Below are positions 26,477-63,206 of a stretch of DNA of 64,000 nucleotides, in pieces. Numbering within the stretch: position 1 is the first letter of the stretch; each line of letters opens with the position of its first letter. The notes beneath the pieces were generated by a model that searched no databases, was not told where the DNA came from, and worked only from the letters and a program-made list of their open reading frames with translations. The position numbers were made by a program, and so were the translations under genes. Source of the DNA: a virus; IMG/VR virus record IMGVR_UViG_3300008954_003475, positions 157,879-221,878 of that record; one strand, given 5' to 3'.

Positions 26477-27308
26477 CAGTCACTCCAGTGTTTAATACAT
26501 TTAAATCAGCTACTCTAAAACCAGATGCATTCTTGTGTCCACCGCCACCAAACTCAGCAGCAATCACAGATACATCATCACCATCTTCTTTCGACCTAAG
26601 CGAAAACCTATAACTCTCTCCATCATAATAATACGCAGCAGCAAAAGGCTCTCCGTCTGCTAACTCTGATGCCATTTCTGATTGAAAAAATGGAGCGTTA
26701 ACAATGGGAACTTCTTTGCCTAAAATATTTGTTCTATAAGAATTTAACAAAAGAGATCTAATCAAGTTTCTCTTGTACTGCAAGATTCCTTCTCCCATAT
26801 TCTTTACGCGTTTCCATCTAATAGATTCTGCTGCATCTAAATAACTATGTAGCATATCCCAATTATCAAATGTTTTCTCGAAAGAATCTACGGCAGACAG
26901 CACTTCTTCTGTAAATGGAAGTTCCCACTTCCACAAGTCTCTATCTTCAACATACTGAATAAGGAGAGGAACATTATCATCTGGAAACAAATAATCCCAA
27001 GCCAAATATGCTCCAGAATGATTCATATCAAAATAACAAAACTCTAAATCTCCCGAATGTTCTTGAGCCGACTTATGATGATCTAACACAACAAGGCTGC
27101 TAGCCTCTTGTTCCATTTCCAGCATTATAGCCCTATCATATGAAAAGTCAACAATAAATACATCACGATCTTTAACGCAAGGTCTTTCCTCGCCATGAGT
27201 AACAGGGATATATTCAGCACTCGCTCCAAACTTTCGCCTAAAAGCCCATGCTGCACCGAATCCATCGGGACAATTAGCATGGTATAAAACCATTATTTTA
27301 TCTGACAT
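26451..27308 (-). CDS. DHH-family phosphoesterase
   Basis: 285 residues with the DHH/DHHA1 layout: YHANCPDGFGAAWAF (residues 9-23, a degenerate first motif), VDFSYD, LDHHKS (about 77-82) and the C-terminal FGGGGHKNASGF. These hydrolyse oligonucleotides or cyclic dinucleotides (NrnA/GdpP relatives). Phage homologues could clear nanoRNA or second messengers. Its ATG shares one base with the TAA of the PurA-like gene. Confidence 0.9.
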   Translation of the reverse strand: MSDKIMVLYHANCPDGFGAAWAFRRKFGASAEYIPVTHGEERPCVKDRDVFIVDFSYDRAIMLEMEQEASSLVVLDHHKSAQEHSGDLEFCYFDMNHSGAYLAWDYLFPDDNVPLLIQYVEDRDLWKWELPFTEEVLSAVDSFEKTFDNWDMLHSYLDAAESIRWKRVKNMGEGILQYKRNLIRSLLLNSYRTNILGKEVPIVNAPFFQSEMASELADGEPFAAAYYYDGESYRFSLRSKEDGDDVSVIAAEFGGGGHKNASGFRVADLNVLNTGVTDESNKNES

Positions 27309-28324
27309 TAAATTACCTCTGGTGAATACGAAAACTTAACATACTCTACAAGGGGTGAGTTGTTTCGTATTGTTGTTTCAACAAAGCTTATCATTTCGTC
27401 TAAGCTTAAGAACCTAACCAATCTTCCACCATAACTGAGCTTAAAATGCCCTAATTCATTTATTATATCACACTTACTTATAACAAGGTTTGTTGTCCCT
27501 GTTATGTTAACTGCTCTAATTAGCATATCCAGATTGAGCCAATTAACCTTTCTTCTTCTTCCGGTCGTGACTCCAAACTCTTGACCTAAATCTGTAAGAG
27601 CCTTTAACACAGGATCTTCAAGCAATCTATTTGGGAACCTTGGGTCCTCTCCGCTCTTTGTATCATAGATCTTTGCAACGCCCCAAACCTTATTAATCTT
27701 CTGAGTTGGAAAGCCTATGCTGCAAGCTCCATAAGGCAATGTGATACTTGATGTTACATAAGGATAAAGTCCATTATCAATATCAAGCCAAACACCTTGG
27801 GCTCCTTCACATAACAGATTGCCATTTAATTCTTCATTCCAAACAAAGTCTTTGTCTAAAACATCAACGGCAAGAGTTCCAACCCTTGCTGCTTTATCTG
27901 CATAACAAGGGGCTATGCCTCGACCTGTTGTGCCAAGCTTTGCTGCCAAATGTTCTTTATCAAAAGCTATATGTTCCTCTGTAACAATATGGCAATTTGG
28001 AGCCACCTTTACTAATGACGTATCAAAACCACTTTTTGATAAATAGTCAATCTCTTTATAAAAAGATTCTGGATTCAAAACACATCCTGGGCCTATAAGG
28101 GACTGAACTCCATGAAAAACTCCAGATGGAATCAAGTGAGTTTTGTACTTCTCTCCTTCTACGAATACGGTGTGTCCAGCATTATTTCCACCGCCCCAAC
28201 GGGCAACTATATCATAATAATTAGAACCATCTTCATTCTTTGTAGAAGCTAACTGACTGGTGACTTTTCCTTTAGATTCATCCCCCCAAGCTAGTCCTAC
28301 AACTATATCTGCTATATCAATCAT
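27308..28324 (-). CDS. purA: Adenylosuccinate synthetase family (PurA/PurZ), short form
   Basis: 338 residues from ATG 28324 (with AGAGGA) against about 430 for bacterial PurA. Landmarks: P-loop-like WGDESKGK (13-20; normally GDEGKGK, so the general-base Asp is kept but a Gly is Ser), GGNNAGH (45-51; PurA has His in place of the first Asn), GTTGRGIAP, CEGAQGVWLDID, TGRRRKVNW and SKCD. The C-terminal GPxRxE guanine-contact motif is absent. Small size and changed purine contacts recall the phage PurZ branch (2-aminoadenine synthesis), but the retained Asp is PurA-like. Purine interconversion is secure; the exact substrate is not. Confidence 0.8.
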   Translation of the reverse strand: MIDIADIVVGLAWGDESKGKVTSQLASTKNEDGSNYYDIVARWGGGNNAGHTVFVEGEKYKTHLIPSGVFHGVQSLIGPGCVLNPESFYKEIDYLSKSGFDTSLVKVAPNCHIVTEEHIAFDKEHLAAKLGTTGRGIAPCYADKAARVGTLAVDVLDKDFVWNEELNGNLLCEGAQGVWLDIDNGLYPYVTSSITLPYGACSIGFPTQKINKVWGVAKIYDTKSGEDPRFPNRLLEDPVLKALTDLGQEFGVTTGRRRKVNWLNLDMLIRAVNITGTTNLVISKCDIINELGHFKLSYGGRLVRFLSLDEMISFVETTIRNNSPLVEYVKFSYSPEVI

Positions 28325-28904
28325 CGCTATCCTCTTCGCTTCCATTAAGAATGTTTATAACCTTCTTAATTTTACTGGGACGGCGAAGAAAAGTAATACC
28401 CTCTTTATGAGTAGAAACAGTTGCTGTGAATGTAATCATTTCACCTACATTAAAGCTATGTGCCTTAGATGTTTTGAAATACCACTTCCAACCTCTTTCG
28501 TCAACACAGATGATAGCTGGCATAGGATATTCGGTATTCATCTTTGCTTCTGCAATCTTATAAATACCAAGCGGTCCAAGATCTAATCTTGCTCCAACCT
28601 CAACATCAGGCTCGTCTAACATGGTTGCTTTCACAATTGAGTCAACCCATCTATTGAGAGATCCAATCCACTTCTCAGTTAGTCTATGAGGATTTTCTGT
28701 AACAACAGAAATGCTTGATTTAAGAAACTCATTGTTTGGACTTTCTTGTAGCTTTACAGCAAGAAGGGGAATAACCATAGGGTTTAATTGCTCTAGGTTT
28801 TCTTGACCTACTCTGGCGGTATCAACCCCGCTCTTCTTGCGTCTATTGGTGGCAGACTTTCTGGACTTCTTTTTCTTTCGTCCATCACTAAAGATATTTA
28901 TCAT
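28317..28904 (-). CDS. Basic hypothetical protein, 195 aa
   Basis: Unrecognised. The N-terminal 20 residues are nearly all Lys/Arg/Ser (DGRKKKKSRKSATNRRKK) and likely bind nucleic acid. The C-terminal 90 residues (WKWYFKTSKAHSFNVGEMITFTATVSTH) look like a small beta-barrel, possibly OB-type, as found at the end of phage helicases and ssDNA-binding proteins. The C-terminus is acidic. An upstream GTG would add five residues. The PurA-like start overlaps its end by eight bases. Confidence 0.6.
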   Translation of the reverse strand: MINIFSDGRKKKKSRKSATNRRKKSGVDTARVGQENLEQLNPMVIPLLAVKLQESPNNEFLKSSISVVTENPHRLTEKWIGSLNRWVDSIVKATMLDEPDVEVGARLDLGPLGIYKIAEAKMNTEYPMPAIICVDERGWKWYFKTSKAHSFNVGEMITFTATVSTHKEGITFLRRPSKIKKVINILNGSEEDSDD

Positions 28905-28977: not shown

Positions 28978-30486
28978 TTATAGCCTACGACTTGTACGAC
29001 TTGGCGGATATCCTGCTGCGGCTCTTTCTCGCGGAGTCATTCTTCTCCACTCTCTTTTTTGCTCCCTAGTCATATTATCCCAGTCTCTTCTTTGACCTCT
29101 TCTTGCCTCTTCTCTAAGATATCGCCGTTGTCTACGAGTTGTAGTACCTGAATCTCTAAGGTTGTTATTCACAGCAGATCTCTCTCTATCTGAAAAAGAA
29201 CTTCTCTGCTCCGGAATAAGCTGGCGTCTATAAGTAATAGGGATCCACAGCTTTGCGTCTACTGCTGCATTTCCAATCGGAGGTTTCGGATCTGTTGTAT
29301 TTTTCTTTTTATTGGTAAAGAAAAATACAGGAATCATTCTATTCTCTGCTGTATCATGAAATGCCCCTACGGAGCCATCCCTATCTCCGTTTGTCTTACC
29401 TTTAATCTCCGCTGCAGGATAGCCTCTAAAGCTACCACTCTGTCCCGCTTGTCCTGTCTGCCCTGCGCCACCAGACTCAGGCGTAAAGGTTGAAAGGGCA
29501 ATGCTGAAAGCACTTCCTGTATTGTCGTTATCATAAGCTGTTCTGACAGCAGCTTTGTTTGCGCCTCTTCCCAATACTGCAGTTGCAGTTGCTTTATCTA
29601 GAGGAAGATCTAATCCTGTTCCGTCAAATAATTTCGTTCTGGCCTCAAGAGGAAAGGACTCTGTTGCGGGGAACATGAGATAGCTTTCAAGCATCCTATC
29701 TCCATCTGTACCCTGTATCCCTCCGGTGTCCAGCCTTCCTGATAACATCCGTAAAGCTTCTTCTGCTGTTTCCGGAAGAGCACCCTTATCTGCTTTGGCC
29801 CAAGCCTGTTTAGATTTAGGTCCAAAATACCCATCGGGTACCAAATCTTTATCGCTATCATCTTTATACCCAAGCTCTTTAAGCTTCTCCTGAACAGCCT
29901 CTGCTGCATCTGATTTAAACAGCTTACCATCTTTCTTAAAAGGAGTAGCGGCCTGTGCAGCTTGTTGCTGACCGCCTTGCTGATCGCCTTGCTGATCGCC
30001 TTGCTGATCGCCTTGCTCCGAACTTCTACTGCTTAAGTGATGCCAGTCTCCAGGCCCGTCAGTCTTTTCATAAACAGCAGATGCCGCCGTGGAGCTCCAA
30101 CTCCCTTTAGGTAACTTTTTCCAGTCATAAAAGGAACCGCCACGGTTTCCTGCATTTAAACCCATGTAAATCCATCCTGACGGACCACCTGTACCTCCAT
30201 ATGCCTCTGCTTTGGCTTTGTCCCATTTCTCAACATCACCTCTGGTTAAACTATTTTCTGTATCAATGGTTAAAAGCTGCATCTTACCGGCTTGATTTCC
30301 CGTGCCTGCCCATACTGCATGTAGCTTTCCATCGGCCCCTTGCTTTACATGATAACTGTTGGGTTCTGGATCATCTTGTATACCCTTAGTAACAGCAGTC
30401 TTTACAAGCCCCTTTACAATCCTTGCCTGAGACTTGTAGCCTAACTTATAAAGCTCTTTAGCCAATGTGTTTAATTCATTATTCAT
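28978..30486 (-). CDS. Tag-module protein with peptidoglycan-binding-like domain (paralogue A)
   Basis: Residues 1-32 form the recurring module (LNTLAKELYKLGYKSQ, ending LVKTAV). A Gln/Gly-Asp repeat (QQGDQQGD) lies about residue 160. Residues about 195-245 match peptidoglycan-binding domain 1 (VQEKLKELGYKD, PDGYFGPKSKQAW). Then comes TGLDLPLDKATATAVLGRG with AYDNDN, also found in the next gene. The C-terminus is an Arg-rich coil (TREQKREWRRMTPRERAA). It probably sits in the virion or is ejected with DNA. Paralogous to the 774-residue protein upstream. Confidence 0.8.
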   Translation of the reverse strand: MNNELNTLAKELYKLGYKSQARIVKGLVKTAVTKGIQDDPEPNSYHVKQGADGKLHAVWAGTGNQAGKMQLLTIDTENSLTRGDVEKWDKAKAEAYGGTGGPSGWIYMGLNAGNRGGSFYDWKKLPKGSWSSTAASAVYEKTDGPGDWHHLSSRSSEQGDQQGDQQGDQQGGQQQAAQAATPFKKDGKLFKSDAAEAVQEKLKELGYKDDSDKDLVPDGYFGPKSKQAWAKADKGALPETAEEALRMLSGRLDTGGIQGTDGDRMLESYLMFPATESFPLEARTKLFDGTGLDLPLDKATATAVLGRGANKAAVRTAYDNDNTGSAFSIALSTFTPESGGAGQTGQAGQSGSFRGYPAAEIKGKTNGDRDGSVGAFHDTAENRMIPVFFFTNKKKNTTDPKPPIGNAAVDAKLWIPITYRRQLIPEQRSSFSDRERSAVNNNLRDSGTTTRRQRRYLREEARRGQRRDWDNMTREQKREWRRMTPRERAAAGYPPSRTSRRL

Positions 30487-30508
30487 TATTTATATCACCC
30501 TATTGATT

Positions 30509-32833
30509 TTAGCTTGGATTCTTTCCGCGCCACTGTTGTCTACGAGCATCTCTTGCGGCTCTATTGCGCTGTTGTATAGTTGTTTGCAGTGGCCCCGTTT
30601 GATTTTTCATAGCCTTTCTAACAGCTCGTCGTTCTTGATCTGTATGATAAGGAAGACCTTGTGCAAGCTGCTGTCTAAAGCGTACAGGCACCCACTTTCC
30701 TTCATAATTAAATAAAGGCTCATATCGTGTTGAGTTTGCCGGAAGATGTGTTGCCACAGTTCCCGCTCCTGCTCCGGAAACTCTCTCGGCAGGAATAACA
30801 GGAACATCGCCTGCTTGACCGCCGAGACCACCACCGAGTCCACCGCCGTCACCTCCGAGGTCTAACGGAGTACTAAATGCGGATAATGCAAAGTCAAGTC
30901 TTCCTTCTGCATTGTCTTTGTCATAAGCTTCTTCTACAGCCGTCTTGTTTGTTCCCTTGCCCAATACAGCAGCTGCGGTACCTGGATCCAAAGGAAGGTC
31001 CAAACCTGTTCCTTGAAACAATGCTGCTCTAGCCGGAAGATCTGCCTCTCCACTATATATAAGATACTTAGAAAGAGGCTTCTCTTCTCCGGTTTGTGCG
31101 GCTCCTCCAGCTTCGGCTGTATCGGAAGATCCACCGGCAGTTCTTTCTTCACTCTTACCTTCATCAAGTGCTTTTAAGGCCAAACCAGGAGATGATGGTC
31201 GGCCTCCTTTGTTTGCTTTGTTCCAAGCCTGTTGAGATTTTGTTCCCCAATCATTATCAATGTCTAACCTGTTTCCATCATCGTCTGTGAAACCAAGGTC
31301 ATTAAGCCTTCTTTGAACATCACCTATTGCAGAGTTACCCGCCGACCAACCGCTGGGAGATGATCCTGATCTTCTTGATGTTCCCGGGTCTGTTCCTGCT
31401 CCTGTTCCCGGGTCTGTTCCTGCTCCTGCAGAACCATCAGCAACTATTACCCAGCTACCGTCTTCCTTATCCGCAACACCAAAGCCAGGAACATCAGCCA
31501 TCATACTCTTGTATTGGCTGGCTGCTGACCAACCATCCATTTTTCTATATTCTGGATAAGCATGGTCGGTGTCTGGAAATCCATTTACCGGAATGCTATC
31601 AGATGAAGACGCGTTATTTACCTCATCGCTTACCCAGGTATCGGTTGCGCTATATCTCTTCGATGTCCACCTCGCATTACCTGTTAACTGTTTGTTAAAC
31701 ACAATACGGTGTAAATCGCCTCCGATGATTCGCCATCTAATGGGATTTGAACCCCATTCTTGATCAAGAGCATACTCACTTACTCCAGCGGCGACCCGTT
31801 CCTCCACAGTTGCTGCCTCAGAAACCGTCCCAGCAGCCGCATGTGCTGCGGCTTGTTCGGCAACTTGTCTGTCATTTTCTCTTACAAAGTCATCCCAATT
31901 TGTCTTGGCACGGTCGGCGGCTCGGGCAGCATCATCCTTGAAGGCACTTGAAGCTCCACTCAACATTATTGATTTAAACCAACTGCCGCTGGAATGGCCC
32001 GGCGTATAGGAGATCGCTGGCTCTTTCGTCGCCCCAGTGTCAAGCAGGCTCTCAGGGAGTCCTTCGCGGTAGTCGTCGGCGGCGAATGCGGCCCACACCG
32101 CTCTAGCAACCGCTGCTGCTTGCTCCTCATCACCCCCTGAATAAAAGTTCACGGTTGCCATTCTGTCGATTGCGTTAGTATATTCCTCAAGAGCTTTACC
32201 CAGCTTGTTCTGGCCTACGCTTCCATCCGAGGTGTAATTCCATGGAGCAGCAGTCTTTACAAGCCTCAAAGTCTCATTTGCTTGTTTTTCATACCCAGAC
32301 TTTCTCAAGGCTGTTGCAAGTTTGGTTAATTCTTTTTGTTCTGTATTCATAATGGTTCCTACCTTTGGTATCCTTCTTCTTTTTAATCTTCCAGTCTCCA
32401 AGAAACTAAAGTAATCTTCTGACTCAGTTTTAAACGGAATATTAATAGGTTTGGATCTTTCTCTTCTGTCAATATTAGATGGTGGTTTATCCTCATCAAT
32501 ATCAATAACCGATGGACCTCCAAAACCTGTGATAAATGATGCTTCAAAATCTTGCTGTTCGTAGCTAGACCTTGGTCTATAACCTTGCGCTCCGGGAGGA
32601 CTTCCGCCGGGAATGTCCGTTAAGCCCAAAGCTTGTTTGTGTATCTCTTGGAGTTTATTCTTTTTTGTCAACTTTTTGCCCTCGTCGGGTTCGTCGTCAG
32701 CATAATTATAAACTAACTCATGTGGATGAGAAGGAGTCCTTATAACATCCGGAGTCCTCTCTTTTATTACCGGTCCAGATTCATAATACGAAATTAAATC
32801 AAGGAGAGATAAACCCCTCTTCTTTTTTTTCAT
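30509..32833 (-). CDS. Large tag-module protein, peptidoglycan-binding-like (paralogue B)
   Basis: 774 residues. Residues 1-161 are Pro/Asp-rich and apparently disordered. The module (ELTKLATALRKSGYEKQAN, VKTAA) starts at an internal Met 162 (base 32350) with its own AGGA six bases upstream, so a 613-residue product may also be made. The middle (about 225-330) is Ala-rich from unusually GC-rich DNA. About 500-548 is the peptidoglycan-binding-like domain (VQRRLNDLGFTDD, WGTKSQQAW), followed by TGLDLPLDPGTAAAVLGKG and a C-terminal WVPVRFRQQL shared with paralogue A. Ends Arg-rich. Confidence 0.8.
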   Translation of the reverse strand: MKKKKRGLSLLDLISYYESGPVIKERTPDVIRTPSHPHELVYNYADDEPDEGKKLTKKNKLQEIHKQALGLTDIPGGSPPGAQGYRPRSSYEQQDFEASFITGFGGPSVIDIDEDKPPSNIDRRERSKPINIPFKTESEDYFSFLETGRLKRRRIPKVGTIMNTEQKELTKLATALRKSGYEKQANETLRLVKTAAPWNYTSDGSVGQNKLGKALEEYTNAIDRMATVNFYSGGDEEQAAAVARAVWAAFAADDYREGLPESLLDTGATKEPAISYTPGHSSGSWFKSIMLSGASSAFKDDAARAADRAKTNWDDFVRENDRQVAEQAAAHAAAGTVSEAATVEERVAAGVSEYALDQEWGSNPIRWRIIGGDLHRIVFNKQLTGNARWTSKRYSATDTWVSDEVNNASSSDSIPVNGFPDTDHAYPEYRKMDGWSAASQYKSMMADVPGFGVADKEDGSWVIVADGSAGAGTDPGTGAGTDPGTSRRSGSSPSGWSAGNSAIGDVQRRLNDLGFTDDDGNRLDIDNDWGTKSQQAWNKANKGGRPSSPGLALKALDEGKSEERTAGGSSDTAEAGGAAQTGEEKPLSKYLIYSGEADLPARAALFQGTGLDLPLDPGTAAAVLGKGTNKTAVEEAYDKDNAEGRLDFALSAFSTPLDLGGDGGGLGGGLGGQAGDVPVIPAERVSGAGAGTVATHLPANSTRYEPLFNYEGKWVPVRFRQQLAQGLPYHTDQERRAVRKAMKNQTGPLQTTIQQRNRAARDARRQQWRGKNPS

Positions 32834-32834
32834 A

Positions 32835-33962
32835 CTATCTCCTTACTAGGGGTGCTTCTCCGTTACTGAATATTCCAGAAAGAAGATCTGCCGCTTTCTC
32901 TATTCTGTCAAACTGTGCGTTAGCAACCGAATCAAAGGCTGCATCTTCATCAAAATCAATATCTTCATGCTGAACTCTAAAGGCGTCCTCTCTTGTTCGA
33001 CGCTCTCTGGCTTGTGCTATTCCACTATCTACATCTGTTAACAAAGCTAAAGCATCTTTTGGATTAGAAGGAAGAGCGCCCTTCCCTGCTTTAGCCCAAG
33101 CCTGCTTAGATCTTCTTCCAAAATCATTATCTGTTGCTAACTCTTTCTCTTCATTATCTGTATGCCCTAGCTCATTAAGTCTGACTTGAACATGCTCCCA
33201 TGTTGCGACCTCTGGCGTTTGAGCAGCACCTCCAGTCTCTCCTGTTCCAGACTGCGCTAAAGCAGTTCCTTGCGGAAGTTCTTTGCCCATTCTTTGAGCA
33301 TAATTCTGAATCTCACTCCAGTGACTAGCGAGATCTGGACTGGTTCTGATCCTCTCCTGATGCTCTTCGTCTCCCGATATATAAGAATCATACCATGACT
33401 TTGCTACCGCCCCAACATCAGAAGAACCTCCCGATGTTCCGCGACTTGTACCTGCCGACTCCATCCAATCAACAGTGTATTGAAGCATTCCTGCCATATC
33501 TCCTTCTTGTGGGTTTTCCTTTCCTGGGTAACCGGCCTTTGGTCCTAAAGATTTCCAATTTCGTGCTAAGTCGTCTCTTCCTATATGAGAAGTAAACGAC
33601 TCCCATCCTTTTTGCAAATCTCTACTCCATTTTGGATTCGACAAAGAAACCTCTACAAGATTAGCTTCATCAAACTGGGCCCATTTACCTTCTTTTGCTT
33701 TATCAAAAAAGAATTTCAAAATAGCTCTAAACACATTTACTCTATCACCTGTAGATAAATTTGCAGCGGTATCTGCCGCCGTCTTCAAGGCGCGAATAGC
33801 AGGCCTGAAGTTATCACCAACCTCTTCTTCATAATGCTCCCGATCCTCTTCTTCCGCCACTTCTTCCTGGGCAGTCTTTAAAAGATTGTCCAGCCTATCA
33901 GCTAGGTCTCTGTGACCAATGCTGTCTAAGTGATTTGCTAATTTAACTAATTCTTTTTGCAT
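32835..33962 (-). CDS. Tag-module protein with peptidoglycan-binding-like domain
   Basis: The N-terminal module is canonical (LVKLANHLDSIGHRDLAD, LLKTAQ). An acidic segment follows (about 32-50), then a helical region and a peptidoglycan-binding-like domain at about 250-300 (VQVRLNELGHTD, DNDFGRRSKQAW). The C-terminus (DRIEKAADLLSGIFS) is a divergent copy of the ending of the next two proteins upstream. AAGGAT lies before the ATG. Confidence 0.8.
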   Translation of the reverse strand: MQKELVKLANHLDSIGHRDLADRLDNLLKTAQEEVAEEEDREHYEEEVGDNFRPAIRALKTAADTAANLSTGDRVNVFRAILKFFFDKAKEGKWAQFDEANLVEVSLSNPKWSRDLQKGWESFTSHIGRDDLARNWKSLGPKAGYPGKENPQEGDMAGMLQYTVDWMESAGTSRGTSGGSSDVGAVAKSWYDSYISGDEEHQERIRTSPDLASHWSEIQNYAQRMGKELPQGTALAQSGTGETGGAAQTPEVATWEHVQVRLNELGHTDNEEKELATDNDFGRRSKQAWAKAGKGALPSNPKDALALLTDVDSGIAQARERRTREDAFRVQHEDIDFDEDAAFDSVANAQFDRIEKAADLLSGIFSNGEAPLVRR

Positions 33963-33976
33963 TTTAATATCCTTAT

Positions 33977-34534
33977 TTATCTAGAAAAGGTGCCTGGAAC
34001 GTATGTTGTAAATTCACGCGACATTAACTCTGCTAACTTATCAATTCTTTCCTGTGCAGAATTGGCTGCAAAAACTTGATCAAAAGCTTCATCGCTATCG
34101 AGGACACCCTGCTCTTCCAATCGAGCTTCTCTGTCAGCATTGTAGGCCTCAAGAATCTCCTCTTTCGTACCAGTTTGTGCCGATGTTTCTTCAGGAACAG
34201 GTGGAGGCTCATCAGATGCTACCTGCCCCTCGGCATCCTCACCATATTGATTTACGTCTGGTTCGGCATAACCGCCGGGGTTTGGGTCTCGTTCAAGCGA
34301 AACTGAATCAAGATTCTTTTGTGCGATCCATGAATTTCTCAATCGTTGATTCCATGTCCCATCATCTTCACCCTCGTGCCGAGGATACTGCAGCTTTAAA
34401 TCCTCGATCTCTTCGGCAGTAGGAGCTACTGCACTACTTTGCGCACTCTTTAAAATTACATCCAACTTATCAGCCAAGTCTCCATGCCCGATGTTGTCTA
34501 AGTGATTTGCTAATTTAACTAATTCTTTTTTCAT
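33977..34534 (-). CDS. Short tag-module protein, 185 aa
   Basis: A short member of the tag family: N-terminal LVKLANHLDNIGHGDLADK and ILKSAQ, an acidic Pro-rich middle of about 110 residues, and a C-terminal KLAELMSREFTTYVPGTFSR nearly identical to the ending of the next gene upstream. With no enzymatic domain, N- and C-terminal elements make up half the protein, so these ends probably carry the function (sorting or packing). A GGAG precedes the ATG. Confidence 0.8.
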   Translation of the reverse strand: MKKELVKLANHLDNIGHGDLADKLDVILKSAQSSAVAPTAEEIEDLKLQYPRHEGEDDGTWNQRLRNSWIAQKNLDSVSLERDPNPGGYAEPDVNQYGEDAEGQVASDEPPPVPEETSAQTGTKEEILEAYNADREARLEEQGVLDSDEAFDQVFAANSAQERIDKLAELMSREFTTYVPGTFSR

Positions 34535-34548
34535 TTTAATTTCTCCAA

Positions 34549-35502
34549 TTATCTTCTGAAAACTCCCGTAACATTAGTTGTAAATTCACGAGACATTAAC
34601 TCTGCTAACTTATTGATTCTATCATGAACCGATTCTGAAGCTTCCTTCTCTACTTCAGGATCAATAGGGCTAAACTCTACATCTAATTCTTCATCAGAAG
34701 AGCCTTCAGAGTCCTGCCAGCCACCAGTGTCACCACCTTCTGATCTCAACCTCTCTAAAATTTTATCCTTCAACTCTACCATTCTCATTATAAAGCTAGG
34801 GCCTTTTGGTTCTTTTCCGGCATCGGCAAACTCTTTGGCCGCCGCTCCTCTCGCCTCATCTTGAGCCTGTCTATCAAGAGCTTTGTCATCCGCACTCTTT
34901 GTCAAACTTAAAGAATCACTTCCCTCTTTTTTATTCAAGATACCATCAAGCCTATCGGCCAAGTCTCTGTGACCTATGTTGTCCAAATGATTTGCTAATT
35001 TAACTAGCTCACTTTGCATTTTATAGCTTCCTTTAGATCCCAGTTTGATAACATTATCAATACGATTCTTTTTATTAGTAGTATTTTTTGAAGCTTCTAA
35101 CTGCAATCTTTGATTGATCATTCCCTCTGCCGCTCTCTCTGCCGCTTCTGCAACACCTTCGCCGCCTGGAAACTCTCCTTTCTCTGCATCAAAATCTTCT
35201 ATATGACCATATTCATGAACCAAAGTTTTTGCTATTTGAGCTACCAAATACTTTATTTCTTCATCAGTAGCGTTTGGAGGAAACTTGTTTATAACAAAGT
35301 GTATCTTATCTATCTTCCCATCATTGTTTACATCTTCGGAAGAAACATAAGCTGCGGCGTTTGGATCGCCGGAAGCAGGTGCCGGACCCCATTCGCACTT
35401 ATTGCTATTCAACATAGACATTATCTCGGGCTTTAAACCAAGAGTTTGAAGACCCTGTTTGACCTTCGGCCAATATGGAGGTTGCGCTGTTTTCTTCAAC
35501 AT
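34549..35502 (-). CDS. HEYGH metallopeptidase-like domain joined to a tag-module protein
   Basis: Residues 1-161 contain a calcium-loop-like DVNNDGKID (57-65) and the zinc motif VHEYGH (96-100), suggesting a small metallopeptidase. Residue 162 (ATG at 35019, with AAAGGAAG upstream) begins a second block: tag module LVKLANHLDNIGHRDLADR, an acidic helical middle and the common C-terminal KLAELMSREFTTNVTGVFRR. The second block alone equals a full family member, so this may be a fused gene or one with internal initiation. The 1094-residue gene upstream overlaps its start by seven bases. Confidence 0.75.
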   Translation of the reverse strand: MLKKTAQPPYWPKVKQGLQTLGLKPEIMSMLNSNKCEWGPAPASGDPNAAAYVSSEDVNNDGKIDKIHFVINKFPPNATDEEIKYLVAQIAKTLVHEYGHIEDFDAEKGEFPGGEGVAEAAERAAEGMINQRLQLEASKNTTNKKNRIDNVIKLGSKGSYKMQSELVKLANHLDNIGHRDLADRLDGILNKKEGSDSLSLTKSADDKALDRQAQDEARGAAAKEFADAGKEPKGPSFIMRMVELKDKILERLRSEGGDTGGWQDSEGSSDEELDVEFSPIDPEVEKEASESVHDRINKLAELMSREFTTNVTGVFRR

Positions 35503-38500
35503 GTTTTATACTCTCCTAATAATAGATTATTATTCAAAGAAAATTTATCAAATAGGTTATATAATTCTTCTGATTCCTTTATCATATCTTGATCAACCAA
35601 AAGATTATACAATGGAACAATCTTTTGCATACCCAGCTTTGTTAATCCAAACTCTTCCATAATTTCAGCAAATCTAAGATTAACAATCTTTGCCCTGATA
35701 TCCTTTAACCTGCTCTTGCTTATACCACTTTGCCTAAGAGCTCTCTCGTTGCCGCCCAAATACCTTAGAAGGCCTGTTACTGTGTCTTGTTCTGGACCGC
35801 CATAAGGAAGCTCTGCTTCGTGAAAAACTTCTTTAACTAACCTTTCACCTTCAAGATACTTATCTCTGCTTAATTCAACGTCTCTTTTTTCTTGATCAAG
35901 CCTTCTGGCATCTCTTTCTCTCTCTCTTCTTGTGCTTATTATTGCACCATTTTGGGCTGGAGTCAAAGAATAATTGTATCCACCCTTCTTTTGTATCGGC
36001 ATTAAAGACTTAACTTTTTCAATACTTTTATTATCTGCTGGAATCCTAAATACATTTAATCCCAATATAGTATCGTCCTCTGCTTCTAACTTCTCCGGAA
36101 GCTCTTGATATATCCTTTTTCTTTTCTTTAAATTCTGTATAGAATTTCCACCTGACTTCAATAAATAAACATATTCCATACCCATTCTTTTTGCGGTCTT
36201 CATAGCGTTAACAATAATTAAATATGGATAATTTTGAGAAATAATCTCAAGATGTTTCTTGGAATCTTTCAGTTCAGGCTCTGAATATTTTTCTTTTAAG
36301 CCATGAAGACTTGTCGGTATTAGCCCAAGGTTATCCAGCCTATCCCTTATCTCTTTTGCTCTATCTCTATAAAGCTCCGAAGCTTTAGCATAAGCTTCGG
36401 CCTTCTCACTTTCGCTAGACTTATAACTTCCACTTATTTTCTCAAACTCTTTGGCCTTACTAGAATATTCTAAAAAGTCTACTGAATCCATTATCTCTAT
36501 AGTCTTTTTGGTAAAATCATCTGGCGAATCTTCCAACCTTGCCTCAAGCTCAGGAGTAAGGCTTTCATCAGCACGAAGCTCTTTCAGTTCCACATAAGCC
36601 CCGCCCTCTCCGTCTTTATAATTCAACTCAAACCTAGCACCTGTATTGCTTATGTAAGATATAGACCTATAAGCTTTCTTTGTTGGAGGCATCCTGTTAA
36701 AAACCCTGTCCAATACAACCGGATAATCTGATTGTATTTGTTCTATAAGAAGTTTCTCTTCAGGAAAAGAGGCAAGGGCCCAGGCCGAAGTAAACCCGGA
36801 ACTACCCAGGTTAGTATGTCCAACAAAATCTGCAGCACTAATGTTGTTTTTGTTTATGTCATACATTATCGGGGTCGGTGTTTCGTTGTCTTGCGTTAAC
36901 TCATATCTATCTACATCTGCATCTGTCAACTCCATTGGTCTTTGCTGACTTTGATAACCAGAATATTTTATCTTAGAATCAGGAAATGCTTCCATGTCTA
37001 TATCATTATGAGATCTGCTATGTATATCTTGTGCTTCATCCAGATGATCAATCTTTTCCAATCTTTTTAAAGCATACCTAAAAGGCTCGGGTATCAAAGC
37101 ATATTCTGATCCCCTGCTATACCTTGAGTAAAAATGATCAAAGTATGTTACTGAATCTTTGTTGCTTATAACAGCTTCCAAAACCTTTCTGTCTATCCTT
37201 CTTCTTAGATCACTAACTAGACGACCTGTAAATTTATAGCTGCTATCCAAAAAACACTTGTAATATTCTTCTATATTTTCTTCTATTTTCTTTGCAAATT
37301 CTATGGTCAACTCTGTTTTTAATTCTTCATCATCTATGTGATACAAGCTATCAGTTAATTTTTCACAGGCAGATTTGTCCATTCTGTTTAATATTAAATT
37401 GAAAACTTTTCTTTTTCCATCATCATCTAATTCTTGAGCAAAATATTTAAAAGACTCTGCCAACTTAGCTGGATCCATAGCTTCCAACACAGATCCCTCA
37501 TCTACACTTTCTCTAAAAATCTTATTCAGATCCAACTGTCTAGCTGTATCGTTCACTCTTCCTTCTGGATTGTTCATATGATTTATAAAATCATTAGGAC
37601 TTACTGTCAACAAGCTTCTATAGGCTACCTCTACATATTTATCGCGTATACTCTCTAGATCAACTGGCGCTCCAAACCAAGTTCTTATTCCAAGAAATCT
37701 GTTAGGCATCTTCTCTGCCATAAGAAGAAACACACTATCTGCTAAGTCTGGAAACTTTTCATTTAATTTATTATAAAAGAATGGATTAAAAATATTATTC
37801 TCTAAAAACTCAACATCATCTGATTCTTTTGCCATTTGCAACATATGATTAACAATTGCCTTCTCATGTTTTGGCATATTTTTATCTATTGCTAAATCAT
37901 ATACTCTAGTTAAGTTGCCAGAACTTATAGCCTCCTTCACTTCATCTATATATATCTTCGTACCCCTTTCGCCTTGTGGACTCTGACGACTTGAATTGAA
38001 TATAATTCTATCTAATCTATTTAATCGATCCTGTCCCAATATACTTTCAAAAGCATTTATAAGACCCTCTGACATTTCTTCTTTCTCATAGAGATAATGA
38101 TTATTGTCAAACAAATCAATAAACAAGTCTATTTTATCTCTTGTCGCATCAAAGACTGCTTGCTTTGAATTTAAATCAAAACGACTAATTCCAGATAAGG
38201 TGTTATTTAAATCATTAGACTCTCTCCAACCGGACTCTCCTCCGCTCATTCTATCTGCTACATTGTTTATCATAAAAATATATTTATTTACAAAATATGG
38301 CTCAAGTTCTCTTACGCTAAAGAGCCTATAGTTACTATGAGAAGGCCCTTCGTCTGTCTTTGCATCTAAAGCTTCTTTTACTTTTCCGTAAGAAAAAATT
38401 GTATTTAAAACAACCTGACCTTTCTGACCATGCCTGCCTGATGACAAATGCCTAATTGCTGTTGGGAACTTATCTCCATAAAGATCACTGTGCAATATTC

Positions 38501-38780
38501 CAGAAAATAGATCTTCTGCGTATCCTATTCTTTTTTGTTCTTGCATGTTTGCGTTTAATATCCAAAAGATTATAGCACCAACATGCCTTATCCCATGAAT
38601 ATCTCCATCCAAAAGCTCTTGAAAGGCTGCCTCTAAATCTTCACCTTCGCCCTGCTCTTCCTCTGATTCAAAATCAGAGAAGCTGCTTGATAACATATTT
38701 TGAACAAATTTTGCTTCCAAAGTTTCATTCGCTACTTTGAATAAAGTAAAAATATTATTTAATCTAGAATTTTTAATCAT
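35496..38780 (-). CDS. Large probable virion or ejection protein, 1094 aa
   Basis: Unrecognised. Mainly charged helices, no signal peptide. The N-terminus lacks the tag module. Around residue 677 is IEQIQSDYPVVL and later YLIIVNAMKTAKRMGMEYVYLL, an arrangement resembling the E-x-Q-S-D region of large phage polyvalent proteins. It is the largest protein of the 29-39 kb block, and its size fits a minor virion or ejected protein. Clustering with tag proteins makes virion association likely. Confidence in a role is low. Confidence 0.75.
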   Translation of the reverse strand: MIKNSRLNNIFTLFKVANETLEAKFVQNMLSSSFSDFESEEEQGEGEDLEAAFQELLDGDIHGIRHVGAIIFWILNANMQEQKRIGYAEDLFSGILHSDLYGDKFPTAIRHLSSGRHGQKGQVVLNTIFSYGKVKEALDAKTDEGPSHSNYRLFSVRELEPYFVNKYIFMINNVADRMSGGESGWRESNDLNNTLSGISRFDLNSKQAVFDATRDKIDLFIDLFDNNHYLYEKEEMSEGLINAFESILGQDRLNRLDRIIFNSSRQSPQGERGTKIYIDEVKEAISSGNLTRVYDLAIDKNMPKHEKAIVNHMLQMAKESDDVEFLENNIFNPFFYNKLNEKFPDLADSVFLLMAEKMPNRFLGIRTWFGAPVDLESIRDKYVEVAYRSLLTVSPNDFINHMNNPEGRVNDTARQLDLNKIFRESVDEGSVLEAMDPAKLAESFKYFAQELDDDGKRKVFNLILNRMDKSACEKLTDSLYHIDDEELKTELTIEFAKKIEENIEEYYKCFLDSSYKFTGRLVSDLRRRIDRKVLEAVISNKDSVTYFDHFYSRYSRGSEYALIPEPFRYALKRLEKIDHLDEAQDIHSRSHNDIDMEAFPDSKIKYSGYQSQQRPMELTDADVDRYELTQDNETPTPIMYDINKNNISAADFVGHTNLGSSGFTSAWALASFPEEKLLIEQIQSDYPVVLDRVFNRMPPTKKAYRSISYISNTGARFELNYKDGEGGAYVELKELRADESLTPELEARLEDSPDDFTKKTIEIMDSVDFLEYSSKAKEFEKISGSYKSSESEKAEAYAKASELYRDRAKEIRDRLDNLGLIPTSLHGLKEKYSEPELKDSKKHLEIISQNYPYLIIVNAMKTAKRMGMEYVYLLKSGGNSIQNLKKRKRIYQELPEKLEAEDDTILGLNVFRIPADNKSIEKVKSLMPIQKKGGYNYSLTPAQNGAIISTRRERERDARRLDQEKRDVELSRDKYLEGERLVKEVFHEAELPYGGPEQDTVTGLLRYLGGNERALRQSGISKSRLKDIRAKIVNLRFAEIMEEFGLTKLGMQKIVPLYNLLVDQDMIKESEELYNLFDKFSLNNNLLLGEYKTC

Positions 38781-40775: not shown

Positions 40776-42380
40776 TTACGAGTTATCGTTAGTGATCGAT
40801 TCATATATTGCAACTTCCGTAGTTAACAACGTGCCACTAGCTGATGCTGCATTTTCCAAAGCTGATCTCACAACTTTTACTGGATCAATAATTCCGCTCT
40901 TTAACATATCATCAACATAACAATCATTAAAGGCATCGTATCCACTAAACATTTTTTTAGAATTGATTATTTTTTCCATATAAGAAAAGTGTTCAATTCC
41001 AGCATTTGTTAAAATCTGAACAAAAGGTGCCCGTATTGATTTCATTATTACATCAACACCAATCAACTCTTCTGTAATAAGAGAGGTATCATTTTTTAAT
41101 TTTTGCAATACAGGAATACAATGCAAAAGAGCCGCACCGCCGCCGGGGACTATACCCTCTTCTACAGCAGCCTTAACAGCGTTTATAGCATCTTCCACTC
41201 GATCCTTCCTTTCTTTTACCTCTGCCTCTGAAATACCACCGACTTTAAACACGGCCACAGAACCAGATAGTGCTGACAACCTTTGCTTTATAGAGGCTAT
41301 CTCATAAGTCTCAAGGCTCTGCTCCAGCTGTACCCTTAGAGTCTTAATGCGTTCATCTATCTCATCTTGAGGACAAACCCCATCTATGATAGTTGTATCG
41401 GCTCTTGTGACAAGCACTCTTCTTGCAGTACCTAAATGCTCAACAGATATATTTCTTAGTGGACAACCTGCTTCATTAGTAAATAAAGTTGTTCCACAAA
41501 CCGTTGCAATATCTGAAAGCATACCTCTTCTTATATCTCCGAACCCTGGCGCTCTTACGGCACAGGAGTGTAATGCTCCACGCGCCTTGTTAAGAACAAG
41601 GGTCTGCAAAGCCTCCCCTTCAGTAGTCTGAGATATAACCAACAGGGGTCTTGCCTGTTCTGAAACTGCTTCTAATATAGGAAGTATATCATATGTATTA
41701 GATATCCTTCCATCATAAACCAAAATTAATGGATTATCAAACTCTACAGTAAGCTTTTCTAGATTTGTAGCAAACGTGGGCGTTATATATCCTTTATCAA
41801 AGGTCATACCTTCCGTATATACTACAGCTGTTTCAAAGCCTGGAGCATCTTCTACAGATATCATTCCATGATCTCCAACAGCCGAAACAGCTTCTCCAAT
41901 AGTTGTGCCAAGACCTACATCATTATTTGAAGATACAATCGCTACATTCCTTATAGTCTCTTCATCATCAACAGACTTGCTAATATCCTTTAACTTTTTA
42001 ACAACTGTATTAACAGCTTTGTCTATCCCTCTTTTGATCAAGACCGGATTGTGACCAGCTGCAACCATTTTAGCCCCCTCTGTAAAAATAGATTGAGCTA
42101 AAACAGTTGCAGTGGTTGTTCCGTCACCTGCCGATGCATTTGTGGACGAAGCTACACTCTTAATGAGTTCTGCCCCCATGCTATGCATCTTATCCTCTAG
42201 AGTTATAGATCTAGCGACTGTAACTCCATCCTTGGTAATGAGTGGTGGGCCAAAGCTTCTTTCTATAGCTGCATGACGCCCCTTCGGTCCAAGCGTTGCC
42301 TTCACAGCATTAGCCAATACATCAAGCCCATCTTTAAGACCATTTCTTGCATCAGCGCTAAACTTAACTTCCTTGCCCAC
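40776..42380 (-). CDS. groEL: GroEL-type chaperonin (Hsp60)
   Basis: 534 residues, full-length group I chaperonin: [27 protein letters not shown], the ATP motif [12 protein letters not shown] (about 84-95) and the C-terminal PGGGAALL. The usual Gly-Gly-Met tail is missing and no GroES is encoded here, so it may use host GroES or act without one, as reported for some phage chaperonins. Expression probably comes from the promoter at 42731-42758 together with the small membrane protein upstream. It may fold capsid or other phage proteins. Confidence 0.97.
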
Positions 42381-62494: not shown

Positions 62495-62716
62495 TTATCT
62501 TGCAGAATTTATATCATATTTGTTATACAAATCATTTTTACCAATAATGCTTCCACTGTAATCTGGGTTTACTACCTTTCTGTTGTTCCAATAAATTGTT
62601 TCAACAACATACTTTTCTATATCTGGATAATAAGTCAAAACACGGTGTCCGTAATCTTTATCGTCTAAAGCACGAACTTCTTTCCCAGCCAAACTATCTG
62701 AATCAAACATTATCAC
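62495..62716 (-). CDS. Small protein, 73 aa
   Basis: Unrecognised. Short beta-rich protein (EVRALDDKDYGHRVLTYYPD, YVVETIYWNNRKVV). Overlaps the previous gene by 14 bases. Confidence 0.6.
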   Translation of the reverse strand: MIMFDSDSLAGKEVRALDDKDYGHRVLTYYPDIEKYVVETIYWNNRKVVNPDYSGSIIGKNDLYNKYDINSAR

Positions 62717-63206
62717 ACCCTTCTATGATAAGTAAATCAATTTCATCGGCAGCTTTGATATGTCCCATCGAATCTAAATAATTAGAAAGTTTTATAAGGC
62801 TGTGCTTAACCTTTGAAGTAATATCGTTAGGCCGGGAAGAACTATCTTTATTACCCAGAAGAATTGCATGATCTTCTTTTATTCTGGTCAATATTTCGCA
62901 AGGAACGCCAGCCTCTTCAAACCACTTTACTTCACGCTTGCTATGTGCAAGCATTTCTTTTTCCGGAAACCCTTTTTCTTCAAGTTCTTTATGCTCTTTT
63001 AAAAGTTTCTTTTTAATTTTATCGGAAAGAAAAGGAACCGCCTCTTCTTTTTCAAATTCAAAATGACATTCGGGGCAACATGAAGTTTCCTCTTTCGCCT
63101 GTTTTTTTTCGCTGCATGATTCACATGCGGCTTTATTTAAAGAATCAACACTCCAGGTGTATGGTTCGTTCAAATAGGTTGCAAGATTTGTAATTCTATC
63201 AGTCAT
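62703..63206 (-). CDS. Cys-rich protein with C-terminal tag module, 167 aa
   Basis: The N-terminal part has two Cys pairs (ACESC near 28-32; CCPEC near 43-47), likely zinc. A charged helical middle follows. Residues about 133-163 (SLIKLSNYLDSMGHIKAADE) are a clear copy of the tag module, here at the C-terminus. The location differs from all other members. Function unknown. Confidence 0.75.
   Translation of the reverse strand: MTDRITNLATYLNEPYTWSVDSLNKAACESCSEKKQAKEETSCCPECHFEFEKEEAVPFLSDKIKKKLLKEHKELEEKGFPEKEMLAHSKREVKWFEEAGVPCEILTRIKEDHAILLGNKDSSSRPNDITSKVKHSLIKLSNYLDSMGHIKAADEIDLLIIEGCDNV

Follow-up and report, generated by a model that had tools for sequence, protein, structure and literature searches.

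In phage lambda, the 3' part of the gene for the capsid protease C, a serine-type protease of head maturation, also yields a scaffold or assembly protein, Nu3, from an internal in-frame start, and in phage T4 a short module, the capsid targeting sequence, is repeated on several internal head proteins. In Escherichia coli, the RpnL/RpnS pair consists of a full-length enzyme and a C-terminal product, variable among rpn genes, which is translated separately from an internal ribosome-binding site (RBS) (PMC10327210), and Cas10d and Cas11d of type I-D CRISPR systems are cited there as large and small subunits made from one gene by internal initiation (PMC10327210). Here we describe two genes with comparable candidate internal starts, which have relatives among a family of giant marine phages that have not been cultured.

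The window, i.e., the whole stretch of 64,000 nucleotides that was analysed, spans bases 157879-221878 of a virus record that is 221,878 bp long. In two of its genes (Table 1), an ATG preceded by a Shine-Dalgarno (SD)-like sequence had been noted 161 codons into the ORF, exactly where a tag module begins, and both sites were confirmed. The internal ATG of gene 1 lies at 35019 (35502 - 161 × 3), encodes Met162 and has an AGGA core 9 nt before it, the main start at 35502 having TTAGGAGAGTATAAAAC in front; the internal ATG of gene 2 lies at 32350 (32833 - 161 × 3), where the minus strand reads CCAAAGGTAGGAACCATT-ATG. The two upstream parts are indeed unrelated, one being a zincin-like domain with an HExxH motif and the other a low-complexity 'LSLLDLISYYESGPV' protein. 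Their equal length of 161 residues is a coincidence, the N-terminal part ranging from 147 to 182 aa among gene 1 relatives.

Table 1. Coordinates of the features discussed, in window positions.
Feature	Coordinates	Strand	Basis or remark
Gene 1, full ORF	34549..35502	-	317 aa: zincin-like domain, tag, variable tail and C-terminal signature
Gene 1 N-terminal part, residues 1-161, zincin-like (HEYGH...GGEGVAE)	35020..35502	-	HExxH, structure model
Internal SD AAAGGAAG before the nested start of gene 1	35027..35034	-	SD core at 5-10 nt in relatives
Gene 1 tag module, MQSELVKLANHLDNIGHRDLADRLDGILNK, beginning at Met162 and predicted to form a helical hairpin	34930..35019	-	Tag profile, E 2.3e-17
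Putative short product (156 aa) started at the internal ATG of gene 1	34549..35019	-	Sequence similarity to 33977-34534
Free-standing tag gene, 185 aa, RBS TTGGAGAAATTAAA-ATG	33977..34534	-	GGAG at 34543-34546
Free-standing tag gene, 375 aa, RBS AAGGATATTAAA-ATG	32835..33962	-	ORF, leader
Gene 2, full ORF, SLLDL-type N-terminal part fused to tag protein	30509..32833	-	774 aa; ORF and relatives
Gene 2 N-terminal part, residues 1-161	32351..32833	-	In L006 and L007 a gene of its own, of 231 aa
AGGA 6 nt before the internal ATG of gene 2	32357..32360	-	Not retained by most fused relatives
Gene 2 tag module (MNTEQKELTKLATALRKSGYEKQANETLRLV)	32258..32350	-	Tag profile, E 3.3e-15
Free-standing tag gene, 502 aa	28978..30486	-	Weak PG_binding_1 match, E 0.00045, below the Pfam cut-off
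C-terminal tag of a different protein, ORF 62703-63206 (control)	62721..62807	-	No Met or SD in front

The reading that we favour, with a probability of about 0.75, is that gene 1 contains a second, nested gene and encodes both a long protease-tag protein and a short tag protein. Translation from the main start would give a zincin-like metalloprotease domain followed by the tag and tail, while a second RBS inside the gene would give the tag and tail alone from Met162. This short product would be the equivalent of the free-standing tag protein encoded next door, to which its predicted sequence is similar at both ends (E 1e-16). The shared tag, together with the C-terminal signature, may bring the long and short products together in one assembly, directly or through a common partner, and the protease would thereby be built in at low dose among many tag proteins.

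Relatives of gene 1 were collected by scanning IMG/VR with gene 1, its N-terminal part and the tag as queries, which gave a fused set of 14 loci, namely the window and 13 loci on IMG/VR phage contigs; L007 and L008, identical sequences from two assemblies, are counted once, and three loci (L052, L056 and L057) were found via the tag and not via the zincin. Comparison of neighbouring genes places 12 loci, including the window and L042, at the same genomic position, next to genes for a GroEL-like protein, several small proteins, an adenylosuccinate synthetase and a DHH-like protein. In the window, the synthetase (27308-28345) matches its Pfam family with E 1.2e-80, its best PHROG being named '2-aminooxy adenylosuccinate synthetase', and, as read from ORF translations, two different GroEL-like chaperonins are apparently encoded by this virus (window 40776-42380 and L035:6083-7738). 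Directly upstream of gene 1 lies a 1094-aa protein without clear family (35496-38780), present in only three of the 12 syntenic loci (window, L029 and L039), which makes it a stretch either inserted or lost at this position.

All 14 fused copies of gene 1 have an ATG at the tag start preceded by GGAG or AGGA at 5-10 nt, mostly GGAG at 8 nt. By the same criterion (a GGAG or AGGA core 5-10 nt upstream of an in-frame ATG), an SD was found at 93 of 1294 in-frame internal ATGs of the same DNA (7.2%), and under a slightly wider spacing rule at 58% of ORF starts. As L024, L025 and L026 are close kin, as are L006 and L022, the fair number of lineages is a modest seven to nine; counting nine lineages instead of 14 loci, p is about 5e-11 under the 7.2% background. 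When codons were redrawn synonymously, with the encoded amino acids held constant, SDs such as those observed had a combined probability of 2.2e-7 across the 14 loci and of about 9e-5 for seven grouped lineages, the SD of any single locus being only moderately unlikely. The RNA at the join has little structure, its mean rank among coding windows being the 11th percentile. Duplex energy alone was rejected as a discriminator, as it hardly distinguishes the join from other internal ATGs, 19% of which are as good as the window's own moderate SD (AGGA, 9 nt); what is conserved is the core and its spacing.

The N-terminal parts of the 14 fused loci are 26-95% identical (median 38%), so that synonymous sites should be saturated between most of them and neutral leftovers decayed. 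The retention of SD and ATG in every fused copy, very diverged ones included, thus supports two products, and we infer that both are made. The RBS and ATG of gene 1 might instead be a remnant of a once separate tag gene, no longer used, as free-standing tag genes with the same leader exist and gene 2 is an example, in these phages, of a fusion whose RBS is fading. This is nevertheless unlikely given the complete retention at such divergence and in three codon phases, whereas at the gene 2 join of the same phages a well-placed SD is kept in only two of seven fused loci (Fisher p 0.001).

The bases at the join also indicate what is conserved. The SD occurs in three codon phases (GGA/GAN in most loci, aAG/GAG in L052 and cGG/AGt in L027, slashes marking codon borders), and the same bases precede free-standing tag genes, whose untranslated leaders read TTGGAGAAATTAAA-ATG in the window (34534) and TCTGGAGATATTAAA-ATG in L042. 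The RBS in the window leader resembles the internal RBSs of gene 1 relatives, and the internal site of L024 and L026, which reads AATGGAGATATTAAA-ATG inside the gene, matches such leaders. From these phases and matches, the signal kept at the gene 1 join is an RNA signal, not a peptide, and the linker Gly-Asp/Glu-Ile-Lys would be a translated RBS. It is accordingly very improbable that the join is a protein feature, e.g., a self-cleavage site of the zincin by which two polypeptides would arise through proteolysis and not through an internal start: a Gly-Asp/Glu-x-Lys-Met pattern is common to many loci and the N-terminal part resembles a protease, but the join peptide varies in L052 (AKETNM), L057 (NKDKNM), L027 (YRSANM) and L007 (GEKEM), all four of which retain the SD, and the join bases recur where they are not translated.

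Further controls come from tags elsewhere in the same genomes. None of 12 other internal or C-terminal tags has a Met preceded by an SD. One of these belongs to L042, the only locus where gene 1 is split: its zincin gene ends in a C-terminal tag of its own, with a nearby Met that has no well-placed SD, and the following tag gene starts at a standard RBS. A stop between the two parts, which was to reveal fusion on comparison of relatives, is thus found for gene 1 in L042 only, and the linked form is otherwise kept; nor is it kept without the ribosome site, as it is conserved together with it. The linked form of gene 1 is old.

In gene 2, by comparison, the stop is present in six loci (L006, L007, L022, L024, L025 and L026), where the parts are separate and the stop precedes the tag gene, while seven loci are fused (window, L009, L029, L039, L042, L056 and L057). 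Fused and split loci are interspersed on a tree built from the concatenated neighbouring genes, so that at least two events of fusion or splitting are required. An ATG is found at the join in all seven fused loci; the SD is well placed in the window and L029 and a weaker AGGGG is found in L039, whereas L009, L042, L056 and L057 have no well-placed SD. The border in L006 reads GGAG-TAA-CA-ATG, and the join in L009 reads GGAGTAACA with the TAA out of frame, a single comparison that fits fusion by frame change. With seven loci fused, six split and the SD kept in two of the fused ones, gene 2 is better explained as mostly a gene fusion whose RBS is fading: it would join two genes which relatives carry separately, the internal start being an inherited remnant that may still work weakly in the window phage. 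Active maintenance of the internal start, making gene 2 a two-product gene as well, is possible but the less probable alternative, since the universal ATG and the SDs of the window, L029 and, more weakly, L039 speak for it, and the four loci lacking a well-placed SD and the non-universal fused form against it. Of the two outcomes originally proposed for both genes, fusion or two products, gene 1 would hence represent the second and gene 2 the first, with at most residual internal starting.

The N-terminal part of gene 1 looks like a zincin-like metalloprotease domain from its motifs and predicted structure. HExxH is present in all 14 fused loci and is followed by a conserved acidic residue, within GGE..AE in 12 aligned sequences, L052 and L056 diverging there. 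The AF2 model is of fair confidence (pLDDT 80, pTM 0.75); its best PDB match by Foldseek is weak, the zincin-like metalloprotease 3e11 (E 0.12, probability 0.80), and matches in a viral structure library, also weak, include IrrE-like and SprT-like proteins (best E 0.0058). A Pfam scan gave no match for gene 1 and a weak SprT-like match for one relative (E 0.0055), and the fold matches of the full-length model were uninformative, apart from hinting at a zincin. Gene 1 has no PHROG head-protease match, and a role as capsid maturation protease was considered and dropped, since another gene of the same phage, in the portal/terminase cluster, matches a head maturation protease (phrog_18299). The window zincin (35020-35502) is nearest to those of L006, L007, L022 and L042, while the neighbouring genes of the window group with L029, L009 and L039, which suggests that the zincin part has been exchanged between phages.

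All zincins recovered with zincin-based queries are followed, towards the C-terminus, by a tag. The tag has a consensus of about 30 aa, roughly M-x-K-E-L-I-K-L-A-N-H-L-D-x-x-G-L-x-K-E-A-D-x-L-D-x-I-I-K-x-A, and in gene 1 it is modelled as two helices (158-176 and 179-196) forming a hairpin behind a low-confidence linker. It is found on many unrelated proteins of these phages (window 28978-35019; loci L048-L083), at N-terminal, internal and C-terminal positions, its profile detecting 9 copies in the window's virus and 2-18 in seven related records; one copy is near the terminase gene, and a protein upstream of that cluster carries two. The tag proteins of the array share a C-terminal signature, DRINKLAELMSREFTTxVxGxFxR (window 33977-35019; L009, L029 and L039). 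By eye only, a 190-aa protein encoded near the head genes (L034:1209-1781) has two diverged tag-like stretches, LGKIAGSLRAKGEAFAADVV and LNKMASDFSNNGDKFAADMV. In the proteins scanned, neither Pfam nor PHROG gave a significant match to the tag, the only overlap being a stretch that weakly matches phrog_3757 (E 0.046). Among cultured-phage records no match was found to gene 1, gene 2 or the generic tag, a first tag query giving one match at chance level (E 9), and in cellular genomes no tag relatives were confirmed.

The occurrence of the tag on many unrelated proteins, together with its free-standing paralogs, suggests a general docking or sorting role. A tentative extension is a tag-based sorting or assembly system, in which the hairpin, with up to 18 copies per record, would mark proteins for one structure or compartment, the same tag would deliver the zincin, and the nested start would supply protease-free tag subunits. 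The short product might also inhibit the long protease or be its antitoxin-like partner, in the way that RpnS relates to RpnL, a reading that we consider unlikely: the architecture is that of the rpn genes-within-genes with their variable C-terminal part (PMC10327210), and the tag-started part of gene 1 relatives is highly variable in length (98-405 aa), yet several free-standing paralogs consist of a tag protein only and the tag occurs on many unrelated proteins.

Gene 1, read as a gene within a gene, would represent a clear comparative case, from uncultured giant phages, of an in-frame nested gene that is conserved, for which the same genomes supply natural controls in gene 2, the other internal tags and the split L042; annotation of one product per ORF would miss its short protein. 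The recurring tag, having no curated family, suggests that these phages possess a module for sorting, docking or assembly that has not been described.

Among the known systems, lambda C/Nu3 resembles gene 1 in that a protease gene has a second protein, here predicted, from an internal in-frame start, but C is serine-type and gene 1 zincin-like, and no sequence relation was found. RpnL/RpnS shares the internal RBS architecture and the variable C-terminal part but is a nuclease and belongs to bacterial toxin-antitoxin systems, no homology to the zincin or the tag being seen, and Cas10d/Cas11d is alike in its internal initiation, the proteins and their function being unrelated. The tag differs from the T4 capsid targeting sequence in being a predicted hairpin of about 30 aa at N-terminal, internal or C-terminal positions, but both are short modules on several different phage proteins. 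By analogy with lambda C/Nu3 and RpnL/RpnS, nested arrangements can serve assembly or inhibition, respectively.
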